Positions 12,834 to 17,157 of a DNA stretch of 33,790 nucleotides are shown in pieces. Positions within the stretch are counted from its first letter, which is position 1. Each line of letters starts with the position of its first letter. The notes below the pieces were generated by a model. It did not search any database, was not told the origin of the DNA, and saw nothing but the letters and a program-made list of their open reading frames with translations. Origin of the DNA: Candidatus Rokubacteria bacterium GWA2_70_23 (GTDB taxonomy: Bacteria > Methylomirabilota > Methylomirabilia > Rokubacteriales > CSP1-6); contig MGBT01000083.1 of NCBI GenBank assembly GCA_001788395.1, positions 1 through 33,790 of the forward strand, in the 5' to 3' direction. The position numbers and the translations under genes are program-made.

Positions 12834-13746
12834 TCAGGCGCGCAGCCGGAGGGCGCCGGGGCAGACGGAGGCCTCGAAGGGCGTCCCACCCCAGGGCTCG
12901 CCGTCGATCTGCACGGGCACCGGTTCCGGGCTCTCCACGGCCACCACGCGCGCCCGGCTGATCCTCACCTTGCGGTTCCTCACGTGGCCGCCCCAGTAGA
13001 GGGTCGGCAGCCAGCGCACCAGCTCCCACCGGCCCAGCGGACCCAGCACGACCAGATCCAGCGCCCCGTCGCATGGATCGGCGCCGGGGGCGATGCGCAT
13101 GCCGCCGCCGAAGCAGGCGCCGTTGGCCAGGACGACTCCCGCCGCGGCCTGGCGCGGCTCCTGCCGTCCGTCGCAGCAGAGTGCGATCTCGACCGGACGG
13201 TAGCCCATGATGCTGGCCGCCACGGCCCGGAGATAGGGGATCGTCCCGCCGCCGCCGAGGCGCGCCGCAACCGCCGCCACCGCGGCATCGAAGCCCGCGC
13301 CGGCGGCGTTGACGAAGTAGCGCTGGGTCCCCTGCCAGCGGACGACGCCAAGATCCACCGCGCGCTCGCTCCCGGCCGCGAGCCGCGAGGCTGCCTCGAC
13401 AGGATCACGCGGCAGCCCGAGCGTCCGGCAGGCGTCCCGTCCGCGGCCAGCGAGGAGCGCCCCGACGGCGGCCCGGGACCGGCCGGCGGCGTCGGTGACG
13501 CCGTTGACCACCTCGTTGAGGGTGCCGTCCCCCCCCACGGCCACGACGAGTGGCACGGCGCGCCGGACAGCCTCCTGGGAGAGCACTGTCGCCTCCCCCG
13601 GCGCGCGGGTCTCGACATGGTCGAAGCGGAAGTCCAGGCGGGTCAGGCGATCGCGAAGGGCGGGCCAGAGGCGGCCGGTTCGGCCTCCTCCGGCCGAGGG
13701 GTTGACGATGACGAGCGGGAAGGCGCCTATCTGGCCCCGCCCGCAT
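12834..13746 (-). CDS. Diacylglycerol kinase catalytic-domain (YegS/LCB5-like) protein with apparent 1-nt frameshift near its start
   Basis: VAVGGDGTLNEVVNG and GGGMRIAPGADPCDGALDLV; in-frame LVIVNPSAGGGRTGRLWPALRDRL lies upstream of the track start (13586) but has no in-frame ATG/GTG/TTG before the TGA at 13748-13746; an ATG at 13746 is one base out of frame. Confidence 0.75.
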
Positions 13747-13810
13747 CAGCCCGCTGCGCTCTGGCCCGGCCCCGGCGGGGCCAGGTCCCGAGCCAGGCGA
13801 GGCCCCGTGT

Positions 13811-13871
13811 GGCGAGCCGCTGCCGCAGGCGAGGCGAGCGGACATGGACATCCCGACGAGCGGAGCGAGCC
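13811..13871 (+). repeat. Repeat unit A1 of ~60-bp dispersed repeat family
   Basis: ggcgagccgctgccgcaggcgaggcgagcggacatggacatcccgacgagcggagcgagcc. Confidence 0.75.
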
Positions 13872-13934
13872 AGAGTCAGCGCGAGGCGTACGTGGGTGTA
13901 CGTTGAGCGCTGGCGACGACCGAGAACATTGCAG

Positions 13935-13995
13935 GGCGAGCCGTAGCCGCAGGCGAGGCGAGCAGCTATGGGAATCGGGCGAGCGTGAGCGAGCC
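13935..13995 (+). repeat. Repeat unit A2 of the same family
   Basis: ggcgagccgtagccgcaggcgaggcgagcagctatgggaatcgggcgagcgtgagcgagcc, same length as A1. Confidence 0.75.
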
Positions 13996-14023
13996 ATGGC
14001 GACGGGAGATGGCCCCGCCGGCA

Positions 14024-14692
14024 TCAGCCCGCGCCCATGGCCCGCAGGAACTCGCTGACCGAGGGGAAGCGCATCATGGGGTTGTGGCGCTTCTCGTCGC
14101 CGATGGTCGTGACCGAGCCGCCGTAGTTGTGACCCGGCAACACCACGGTGGAGTCGGGCAGGGCCGCCAGCCGCTGGGTCAGCGAGTAGTACATTTCCTT
14201 CGGGTCGCTGCCGGGCAGGTCGGTCCGTCCGCAGGAGCGGATGAACAGCGTGTCGCCCGAGATGAGGCGCCCATCCACGAGAAAGCACTGCGATCCGGGC
14301 GTGTGCCCTGGCGTGTGGACGAAGGTGAGCGTGAGCCGGCCCACGGCCAGCGTGTCGCCGGCATCCACCTTCACGAGATCCGAGCCGAAGCCCTTGAGGA
14401 ACTCACGCTCGGACTTGTGCACGTACACCTTGGCGGGAGCCTTGCCCAGCAGCTCGGCAACCCCGGGGATGTCGTGGCCGAAGAGGTGCCCGCCCACATG
14501 GTCCTGGTGGGTGTGCGTCACGAGCACCCCGCGGAGCTGCATGTCGTCCGCCGCGACCTGGTCGAGGATGTCGTCGATCTCCCAGGCGGGGTCCACCGCC
14601 ACGCACTCCCGCGTGACCGGGTCCCCGATCAGGTAGACGAAGTTCTGCATCGGGCCGAGCTCCATCTGCTTGAGGTAGAGGGTGTCGCTCAT
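14024..14692 (-). CDS. MBL-fold hydrolase (glyoxalase II / persulfide dioxygenase-like)
   Basis: THTHQDHVGG, HTPGHTPGSQCF, SGDTLFIRSCGRTDLPGSDP, LPGHNYGG. Confidence 0.87.
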   Translation of the reverse strand: MSDTLYLKQMELGPMQNFVYLIGDPVTRECVAVDPAWEIDDILDQVAADDMQLRGVLVTHTHQDHVGGHLFGHDIPGVAELLGKAPAKVYVHKSEREFLKGFGSDLVKVDAGDTLAVGRLTLTFVHTPGHTPGSQCFLVDGRLISGDTLFIRSCGRTDLPGSDPKEMYYSLTQRLAALPDSTVVLPGHNYGGSVTTIGDEKRHNPMMRFPSVSEFLRAMGAG

Positions 14693-14719
14693 GCCCTCAT
14701 CCTACCATTCGTCCTCGCC

Positions 14720-15193
14720 TCAGCGGGCCCAGTACCCCTCCACCCACACGGGCTGCTGGTAATAGCCCGTCTGGATCATCTGCGGCTGGTAGTGGCTCTC
14801 CACCCACAACCCCTCGGCGGTGTAGAACCCCGGCACGTAGACGTAGGAGGTTGACACCCGAGGCACCCACTGGTAGGTCCAGTAGCCTGGTATCCAGCGA
14901 GGATAGACCGGCGCCACGTAGCTCGGGGCGTAGTAGTAGCTCCTGGGCGCGACGATGACTCTGGTGTTGGGGCCGGTGACGATGACCCTGGCGCGAGGAT
15001 CCGTCACGATGACCTTCGTCTGGCCCGCCGGGTGCCCGCGGCGCCAGCCCGACGTCGCGCCCGGCCAAGCGCCGCCTGGGACGATGATCTTGACACCGTC
15101 GGCGGTCGACGACGACGGGCCCAGAGCGAGTGCCGCCAGCAGGGCCAGCGACGCGGTGACGACCTTGATGCCGGTGTTCCGGTTCCGAGCCAT
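14720..15193 (-). CDS. Secreted Tyr/Trp/Pro-rich protein (YXWGXW-repeat-like), function unknown
   Basis: Signal peptide MARNRNTGIKVVTASLALLAALALG; WIPGYWTYQWVP, YVYVPGFYTAEGLWVESHY, PVWVEGYW; GGAGGAGG ribosome site. Confidence 0.65.
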   Translation of the reverse strand: MARNRNTGIKVVTASLALLAALALGPSSSTADGVKIIVPGGAWPGATSGWRRGHPAGQTKVIVTDPRARVIVTGPNTRVIVAPRSYYYAPSYVAPVYPRWIPGYWTYQWVPRVSTSYVYVPGFYTAEGLWVESHYQPQMIQTGYYQQPVWVEGYWAR

Positions 15194-15259
15194 GGGAGCC
15201 TCCTCCCTCGACGAGAGTCTCCTGCCTCCGGAACCCCGGACCTCCCGCTGGAGTTCCGA

Positions 15260-15374
15260 GCTCCGCTCGGGGGATCGCCACGTTCGCTCGCCTCGCCTTC
15301 GGCTGCGGCTCGCCTCCTCGCTCCGCTCGGGGGATCGCCACGTTCGCTCGCCTCGCCTTCGGCTGCGGCTCGCC
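15260..15374 (-). repeat. Two tandem units (B1, B2) of the ~60-bp repeat family, opposite orientation to A1/A2
   Basis: 55-bp block gctccgctcgggggatcgccacgttcgctcgcctcgccttcggctgcggctcgcc is identical at 15260-15314 and 15320-15374 (period 60). Confidence 0.92.
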
Positions 15375-15381
15375 AACCAGT

Positions 15382-17157
15382 CTAGCCGGGGATCTCCGAG
15401 GGGGCCTTTCGGAGGTCGCGGACCAGCTTGCTGTCTATGACGTAGATCGACGGGGAGGTCTTCACGCGAACATAGGTGCGGTCCCCCTCCTCCTTGCCCA
15501 CGAGGAGGGTGGCGAGCTCGGCGCCGTCGGCCTTGGACAGCGTCACCTCGAGCTCCGGCCTGTCCAGCCCGAAGCGACCGGCATCGTCACCCTTGGCAGA
15601 GGCGATCTCCTTCCAGCGGAGCGCCTTGAGCGTCAGCAGGAGGTCAGAGACGCGCGCCTCCTTGGCCTTGCCCTTCGAGGGCTCGAGCACCTGCCACTCC
15701 GCCTCGCCCTTCCGCTCGATCAGGAGGGACTTGCCGCCACCGGCCACGCGTGCCCGCTTGACATCCCCGAGCTCGAAGGCCGGCAGGAGGCTCTTGTCGC
15801 GGAGGTCGGAGGCGGTACGGGCCAGATCCTCCAGGGCCTTGCCCTCCACCAGCATCACGGGCCCCTGCCCCGCAACAGCCGCCAGCGCCACCGGCTGCCC
15901 CCCGCGAGTCTCCCGCGAGGAGGCGACCAGGAGGACCTTCGGCTCCTTCCCGCCCTCCTCCCAGATGCGCACCGTCACCTCGGGCTTCGCCAGGTAACGC
16001 GGGACGTCCCTGGCGTCCTCGGACAGGAAGCCGCTGGCGCGCAGATCACGGATCCGCCAGAGGACACCGTTCACCGCGCCCGGGTCGGCCTTGAGCGGCT
16101 CGGGGGCCGTGAGCTTCCAGCCGCTGCCGTCACGCTCGAGGGTCACCCCGCCCTTCGCGTGCTCGAGCGCGATCTTGGCCACCTTGTCGTAGGCGTAGGC
16201 CAGCACGACCTTGTCGCGGAGCACCCCGACCGTCTTGGGCACCGCCGTCCACAGCTCCTCGCCCACAAGCATGACGCCCGGCTCGCCCTGGCGCATCACG
16301 TAGACGCCCTTCTTGTCCTTGTCCTGCCGGCCGAGGAGGAGCGCCTTGGAGGAGCGCTCCTTGTCCTTCCCGATCCAGAGCGTCACGGTCGCGGGCCGGT
16401 CGAGGCCGTAAGGGGCCAGCGTCTTCGGCGTATCGTCCACGAATTCCTTGGCCCGGGCGGAGGCGAGCTTCTCGAGGAAGTCGGCCATGAGGTCGGCGTC
16501 GGCCTTGAGCGCCCGGGGCTTGGTGATCTGCCACGTGCCGGACTCCTGGGGCTCCACCGTCATGCGGTCGCCGGCCACGTCCAGATCCACGGCGGTGATG
16601 CTCTTGCGGTCGAAGGAGAGAACGGTCTTGTCCCGCAGCTCGGCCAGCGGGCGGGCCACGTCCCGGCCCACGCCCTCGGACAGCGCGAGCACGGCGCTCT
16701 TGCTGCCCTCCTTGCCGTACACCCAGGCCCCCGTGGGGTTCTTGCCGCCGATCAGCAACACGAGCGGCTCGGCGCGCCCCTTGGCCTCCAGGGTGACCTG
16801 GACCTCCGGCGGGTCGAGCCCGAACTCGGAGAGCTTGGCCGGGCTCCCGTCGATCTCCCGATCCACGCGGAGCGTCGCGAGCGTGGTCACCACGCCGTCC
16901 ACGGCATTGCGGTCGCCACGCGTCTTCACGGGCTCGAGCATCTCCCAGCCCCCGTCACCGGCGCGCGCGAGCTTCACCGTGTCGGTCTTGCGCTTGAGCG
17001 TGAGCGTCTGGACGTCCTTGGGCTCGACGGTCCAGAGGCGCCCCTTGACGCTCTCGGTCTTCTCCCGGGCAGGGGCGAGCCAGTAGGTGTCGTAGTAGAA
17101 GAAGCCGCCGAGGCCGGCGGCGAGCAGGACCAGAACGACGAGGGATTTCCAGCTCAT
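15382..17157 (-). CDS. DUF4340 domain-containing protein
   Basis: N-terminal TM, repeated W.L..P.....D...V......L......F......LAPYGLDRP-type units; downstream of the GldG-like gene. Confidence 0.82.
   Translation of the reverse strand: MSWKSLVVLVLLAAGLGGFFYYDTYWLAPAREKTESVKGRLWTVEPKDVQTLTLKRKTDTVKLARAGDGGWEMLEPVKTRGDRNAVDGVVTTLATLRVDREIDGSPAKLSEFGLDPPEVQVTLEAKGRAEPLVLLIGGKNPTGAWVYGKEGSKSAVLALSEGVGRDVARPLAELRDKTVLSFDRKSITAVDLDVAGDRMTVEPQESGTWQITKPRALKADADLMADFLEKLASARAKEFVDDTPKTLAPYGLDRPATVTLWIGKDKERSSKALLLGRQDKDKKGVYVMRQGEPGVMLVGEELWTAVPKTVGVLRDKVVLAYAYDKVAKIALEHAKGGVTLERDGSGWKLTAPEPLKADPGAVNGVLWRIRDLRASGFLSEDARDVPRYLAKPEVTVRIWEEGGKEPKVLLVASSRETRGGQPVALAAVAGQGPVMLVEGKALEDLARTASDLRDKSLLPAFELGDVKRARVAGGGKSLLIERKGEAEWQVLEPSKGKAKEARVSDLLLTLKALRWKEIASAKGDDAGRFGLDRPELEVTLSKADGAELATLLVGKEEGDRTYVRVKTSPSIYVIDSKLVRDLRKAPSEIPG

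Follow-up and report, generated by a model that had tools for sequence, protein, structure and literature searches.

Two pairs of short repeats in opposite orientations bracket the genes of an MBL-fold hydrolase and a secreted Tyr/Trp-rich protein in Candidatus Rokubacteria bacterium GWA2_70_23, and this arrangement raises the question of what the repeats are and whether they have moved the two genes between them. The window, namely the whole stretch of 33,790 nucleotides that was analysed, corresponded to contig C83 of a draft genome of 4.65 Mb (243 contigs). The first-pass annotation had described four units sharing an arm, A1 and A2 on the plus strand and B1 and B2 on the minus strand. All four arms were found at these positions with no mismatches, and 100 dinucleotide shuffles of the window produced no match. 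The arms of A were 76-87% reverse-complementary to those of B. The genes between and beside the repeats and the B units were as follows.

14024-14692, minus strand: host-context gene of the MBL-fold hydrolase, conserved in 52 of the 57 family genomes
14720-15193, minus strand: gene of the secreted Tyr/Trp-rich protein, host context, with orthologous DNA in both congeners
15255-15314, minus strand: free unit B2, 60 bp
15315-15374, minus strand: free unit B1, 60 bp, the first in transcription order
15382-17157, minus strand: host-context gene directly upstream of unit B and co-directional with it

The 60-bp period of the tandem B1/B2 was confirmed (TRF score 230), the two units being 97% identical over 60 bp, and the extent of the pair was refined to 15255-15374. 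Similarly, A1 and A2 were indeed copies of the repeat (83% identity over 42 bp) but not separate units, both being modules of one longer element at about 13755-14009.

Far from being confined to the window, the arm had 61 matches in the genome at up to three mismatches (33 forward and 28 reverse), and the reversed pattern had none. These further copies supported the first-pass view of an intergenic, structured, REP/MITE-like repeat family. Among 95 genomes of the phylum, the arm was present in 30, with 0-56 perfect copies per genome. Namely, the three genomes of the window's genus had 36, 56, and 40 copies (40 in the congener G090), other genera of the family had 0-10, one sister family had a single copy, and none were found elsewhere. 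The sampled loci were those with near-perfect arms, so that diverged copies were under-counted; all genomes compared were drafts, and repeats are where drafts misassemble. A strict pattern searched against 84,980 species genomes, a set from which the window's own genome may be missing, had its sole match in Candidatus Rokubacteria bacterium GWC2_70_16, the congener G089. The repeat family was essentially restricted to one family of uncultured soil Rokubacteria, and a literature search on Rokubacteria repeats returned nothing relevant.

With inverted arms on either side of the MBL and secreted-protein genes, the locus resembles a compound transposon in which pairs A and B would carry the intervening genes along. 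The relatives contradicted this. B1 and B2 were absent from G089 and G090 at an otherwise alignable junction, and the site of element A was filled at the same place in G089 (L114) but empty in G090 (L113). However, both bracketed genes were present in the same order in both of these congeners, and because of this there was no sign of a compound transposon. Moreover, A and B were elements of different types that differed in presence and absence among the relatives, so their description as one bracketing unit did not hold, and the orientation rules given below account for the inversion. We regard the compound transposon as refuted by the relatives, with practically no probability left to it.

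Element A and its surroundings comprised the following features.

13732-13754, plus strand: left copy of a 23-bp direct repeat beside element A, 96% identical to 14010-14032
13755-14009, plus strand: element A, a decayed two-module MITE form, identified by alignment to further copies, 33 of them full
13811-13870, plus strand: module A1, with the hairpin arm (13811-13839) and a tail hairpin ACGAGCGGAGCGAGC (about 13856-13870)
13877-13912, plus strand: central stem of the MITE, CAGCGC-gagg-CGTAC-gtgggt-GTACG-ttga-GCGCTG
13935-13995, plus strand: module A2, with the arm (13935-13963) and the tail GGCGAGCGTGAGCGAGCC with a GTGA loop
14010-14032, plus strand: right-hand copy of this direct repeat (23 bp), which overlaps both the MBL stop codon and the decayed terminal repeat at that end

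In the alignment of copies from the genus, the MITE had a basic length of 174-175 bp and 25-bp terminal inverted repeats (TAGTGCGCCTCCAACGAGTTTCGCC ... GGCGAAGTTAGTTGGCCCGGCACTA). Among MITEs that retained the terminal repeat at either end, 33 in number, sizes were mostly 174-175, 228-238, and 291-319 bp, and the longer forms held one or two modules of about 60 bp at only two positions, after GACGAGGCCC and after GACCGAGAAC. The outer part of the central stem was altered on both sides among the aligned copies (GCGCGGGCGC/GCGCCCGCGC versus GCGCCGGCC/GGACCGGCGC and TGCGGACC/GGATCCGCG). The flanks read c|TA...TA|g in nearly all of the 33 copies, corresponding to a CTAG target, and the empty site had CTAG. 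In 25 of the 33 copies, the right end of the MITE coincided exactly with a neighbouring gene's TAG stop (the left end in 3), where the TA of the target together with the first base of the element, G, restored the stop codon.

The copy in the window departed from this target form, having decayed ends and the 23-bp direct repeat instead. Its terminal inverted repeat was an imperfect one of 19 bp (13772-13790 and 14003-14021), and the element was antisense to the MBL and YegS-type genes and reached the MBL stop codon on its right side. In G090, which had no element there, the direct repeat was present as a single copy, representing either the original target or a precise loss. In the region 13587-13760, the YegS-type lipid kinase gene had no obvious ATG or GTG start after an in-frame stop near element A, and this gene was mostly deleted in G090.

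Several other arrangements of the same parts were observed. In a third composite, a stem related to the central stem of the MITE, GCACGCGAGGCGTACTCCGCTT...CACGTTGAGCGTGC, had the hairpin module inserted in its loop (L183:1585-1626, L111:1343-1382, L144:14618-14659, and contig C157:7790-7831 of genome G000). A longer composite, CCGCAGCCCGCAGTGCGAGGCGCAGCC...GAAGCGCGCCGAGGCGAGCGG, recurred between 60-bp units, both free and within MITEs (G000 contigs C120, C136, C119, and C164; L109 of G089). When the 57 family genomes were searched for the MITE end, G088 gave 178 matches, nearly all of them TAGTGCCGTTCCAACTATTCGCGCC, and at C54:21845-21969 five matches of this type lay head to tail with a 25-bp period. 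These amplified repeats are a separate, much amplified family.

The modules carried by MITEs and the free 60-bp units followed opposite orientation rules, where the genes behind the orientation and target rules were simple codon-usage calls made in the analysis. MITE-borne modules were antisense in 28 cases and sense in 3 (two-sided binomial, 5e-6). The free units located between genes in the window's genus were sense to both neighbours in 23 cases, antisense in 1, and mixed in 6 (23 versus 1, two-sided binomial, 3e-6), and 8 of the 10 free units inside genes were also sense. Since the genes at 13.8-15.4 kb were all on the minus strand, these two rules explain why A was on the plus strand and B on the minus strand.

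The free units often started no more than about 7 nt past the upstream stop codon, as did B1, at 7 nt past the stop of the upstream gene (15382-17157). Their tail was GGAGCGAGG, which lay 6-10 nt ahead of a start codon in 9 of 33 units (about 9-10 of 33 overall), with a distance from GAGG to the start close to that in native genes. A Shine-Dalgarno role did not fit the B units of the window, where the start codon of the secreted-protein gene (about 15193) was 62 nt downstream of B2. MITE-borne modules ended in GAGCGAGCC instead and were missing the Shine-Dalgarno-like motif of the tail. One 60-bp unit was located in frame within a coding gene (L002:1501-1559, which is contig C20:9626-9684 of G000), adding GEPQPEARRADMGIPRAERG to its product, and was absent in G090.

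In other genera of the family, the arm was part of a unit of about 44 bp with the plan RTGAnnGTGGYMGT, the 28-nt arm, and CT-RTGA. Between co-directional genes, these units were sense in 39 cases and antisense in 3 (two-sided binomial, 6e-9), often exactly 10 nt past the stop and 3 nt ahead of the start codon. Of 63 loci, 40 had RTGA on the 3' side and 20 had it on both sides. A 44-bp period was found in 18 of 24 spacings, and with this period each such unit formed a mini-ORF of 15 codons with a stop that overlapped the next start by 4 nt (44 = 48 - 4), so that tandem arrays, such as the one of 7 units in L073, were series of mini-ORFs coupled to one another. The hisB-hisH junction had no unit, one, two, or a truncated one, depending on the genome. 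A duplication of the target was clear at some sites only. For the 44-bp unit, the nucleotides that followed the two RTGA copies agreed modestly above chance (7 of 5000 shuffles were as good over the first 4 nt), and a short target duplication of about 4-7 nt may have occurred. Reading the unit as the arm with a target duplication of 16 bp became less tenable, since RTGA...GTGG belongs to the consensus.

What the units have in common is the arm, which can be drawn as GC-GA-GCC-GnA-GCC-(GNA)-GGC-GA-GGC-GA-GC. In this shape, short G-C stems alternate with tandem G.A mismatches, and a GNA loop with a freely varying base closes the hairpin; the RNA fold of one unit agreed with this drawing. Arm pair 6-23 was CG in 70 and GC in 17 of the 87 arms from other genera, with no other combination, and 81/27/10 in the window's genus; pair 2-27 had five G-C swaps. 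The outer pair of the tail hairpin was C-G in 36 and G-C in 35 of 78 cases and was paired in 94% of them, compared with 48% after shuffling. Folding energies of the window units were not better than those of shuffles, for RNA and for DNA with standard parameters, and for this reason it was the paired changes that carried the claim of structure. A hairpin in the arm and tail is thus likely rather than proven, and the paired changes could come from a few old subfamilies rather than from many events. The data are compatible both with a hairpin acting as RNA and with one acting as single-stranded DNA.

The same variation bears on the peptides. The first-pass annotation had noted matching peptides on reading through the repeats, and these proved to be a by-product, since the arm varied with base pairing and at the free GNA position and not with codons. 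A coding function of the repeat peptide was rejected because the variable positions obeyed the pairing and the free loop base. The in-gene copy of the arm was translated in another frame.

Paired changes in the arm and tail, together with the strict orientation between co-directional genes (sense for free units, antisense for MITEs), might also be expected of structured mRNA elements, namely ERIC- or REP-like intercistronic regulators of stability or translation that are retained for their function. REPs and ERICs are known to be located downstream of genes and to affect mRNA (PMC3733652, PMC2229807). However, the presence of our elements varied between congeners at the same junctions, some copies were within genes, and no common theme was seen among the adjoining genes. 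Rfam gave no matches at the gathering threshold (only a chance mir-598 match, E 0.45), no intrinsic terminator or promoter was found at 13600-15500 of the window, and the folding energies were ordinary. We therefore consider a regulatory RNA unlikely, and the family is likely selfish rather than regulatory.

Among the filled and empty sites, window B and C14b resembled the element little or not at all. Other copies were also filled in one congener and empty in another, including one in frame within a coding gene. These filled and empty sites suggest mobility, which would depend on an enzyme acting in trans. A passive spread by tandem slippage and gene conversion among existing copies, without transposition, would be consistent with the tandem copy number varying at shared sites (comparisons at C120, C136, C60, and C99, and the hisH junction) and with modules at identical MITE positions. 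Nevertheless, it hardly explains insertions into sites such as window B and C14b or the exact target rules, for example the TAG stop, and we find it quite improbable.

In searches for Y1 and IS630 enzymes in the congeneric drafts and family genomes, no transposase with matching ends was found. A single DDE_3 (IS630) gene was present in the three congeneric drafts, in G090, and it was rejected as the partner of the MITE because its ends were different. The sole Y1 transposase of the G000 draft was an IS200/605-type TnpA at L032 (contig C7, 7155-8867), which adjoined a TnpB-like gene, the TnpB region being partly masked.

REP elements are defined by GTAG/CGTC tags, and GTAG REPs also by their RAYTs (PMC3733652). 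Our family resembles REPs and BIMEs in having tens of small, mostly intergenic hairpins that are often in tandem (PMC3733652) or paired. HUH enzymes work on single-stranded hairpins, and some 44-bp units had GTAG directly 5' of the arm, so mobilisation by a RAYT (an HUH/Y1 transposase) had to be considered. Against this, the copies in the genus had no conserved GTAG or CGTC tag, and the family as a whole had neither a consistent tag nor an associated RAYT. Y1 genes were found in 11 of the 57 family genomes and were absent from G090 despite its 40 arm copies, and none of the 16 Y1 loci examined in the family had an arm beside it. An origin as RAYT-mobilised REPs is largely refuted and very improbable.

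Overall, we consider it probable that the repeats are lineage-specific, tiny mobile elements of a non-autonomous kind, and that their insertions target translational punctuation while their neighbours go on working. They occur in three related forms. In the first form, the 28-nt arm flanked by RTGA makes up a unit of about 44 bp whose own mini-ORF would maintain coupling across the stop/start junction. The second is the free 60-bp unit, placed in sense after a stop codon, with GGAGCGAGG able to act as a Shine-Dalgarno sequence when a start follows 6-10 nt on. The third is a 175-bp IS630-like MITE that uses a TAG-containing target and restores the TAG stop with its first base. It carries zero, one, or two of the 60-bp modules at its two fixed positions, and window A is a decayed two-module copy. 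Both neighbouring genes appear to be spared by the insertions, and translational neutrality may be the reason for the orientation and target rules. The hairpin would be the recognised form, as single-stranded DNA or RNA.

A bolder proposal, possible though doubtful, is that the family represents a second independent origin of coupling-preserving mini-cistrons. In this case, a 28-nt hairpin, in the form of single-stranded DNA or RNA, would have invaded RTGA junctions via some enzyme, its tandem copies forming chains of coupled 15-codon ORFs, and would later have become a cassette in a MITE that targets stop codons.

The closest known parallel is the MIRU, which inserts at start codons with an ORF coupled at -4 nt and has been described as an interesting, special mycobacterial case of translational coupling (PMC12548453). 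The 44-bp units are likewise short dispersed repeats at operon start codons, with a small ORF coupled at -4 nt and a variable tandem number. The orientation of the operon is also shared, at 39 versus 3 in other genera and 23 versus 1 in the window's genus. The overlap feature was seen in other genera, in the RTGA on both ends (20/63) or on the 3' end (40/63) and in the 44-bp period, whereas the 60-bp units of the window had no RTGA overlap. In contrast to MIRUs, our family has a hairpin that covaries and contains tandem G.A mismatches as well as a GNA loop, apparently differs in sequence, belongs to another phylum, and has a 60-bp unit in the window's genus. Elsewhere in the family the 44-bp units work like MIRUs, but the units of the window are not classified as such. 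To judge by sequence and lineage, the resemblance may be due to convergence.

Among other known elements, ERIC, NEMIS/Correia, and RUP have TA at their termini, RUP being linked to IS630 (IS630-Spn1) and NEMIS occurring with and without an internal insert (PMC2229807). Our MITE is similar in its size of 100-300 bp, terminal inverted repeats, TA ends, non-coding nature, and forms with and without an insert. However, its end lies on a TAG stop in 25 of 33 copies, it holds up to two copies of an otherwise free repeat, and a partner insertion sequence was not found in the three congeneric drafts. Rickettsia palindromic elements (RPE) are inserted in frame in coding genes (PMC2229807), as was at least one of our units (C20), but the units described here are shorter and mostly located at gene junctions. 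Thus, the family and its combination of features are new, and the principle of harmless insertion at punctuation was already known from MIRUs and MITEs.

The family accounts for peptide tails rich in Arg, Ala, and Glu that are spuriously predicted for genes in these Rokubacteria genomes, and many pairs of filled and empty sites are available for studying how such elements move. Moreover, from a MIRU-like solution in an unrelated uncultured phylum, together with a MITE that targets TAG stops, it would seem that small selfish DNA in dense genomes can arrive at translation-neutral insertion repeatedly.
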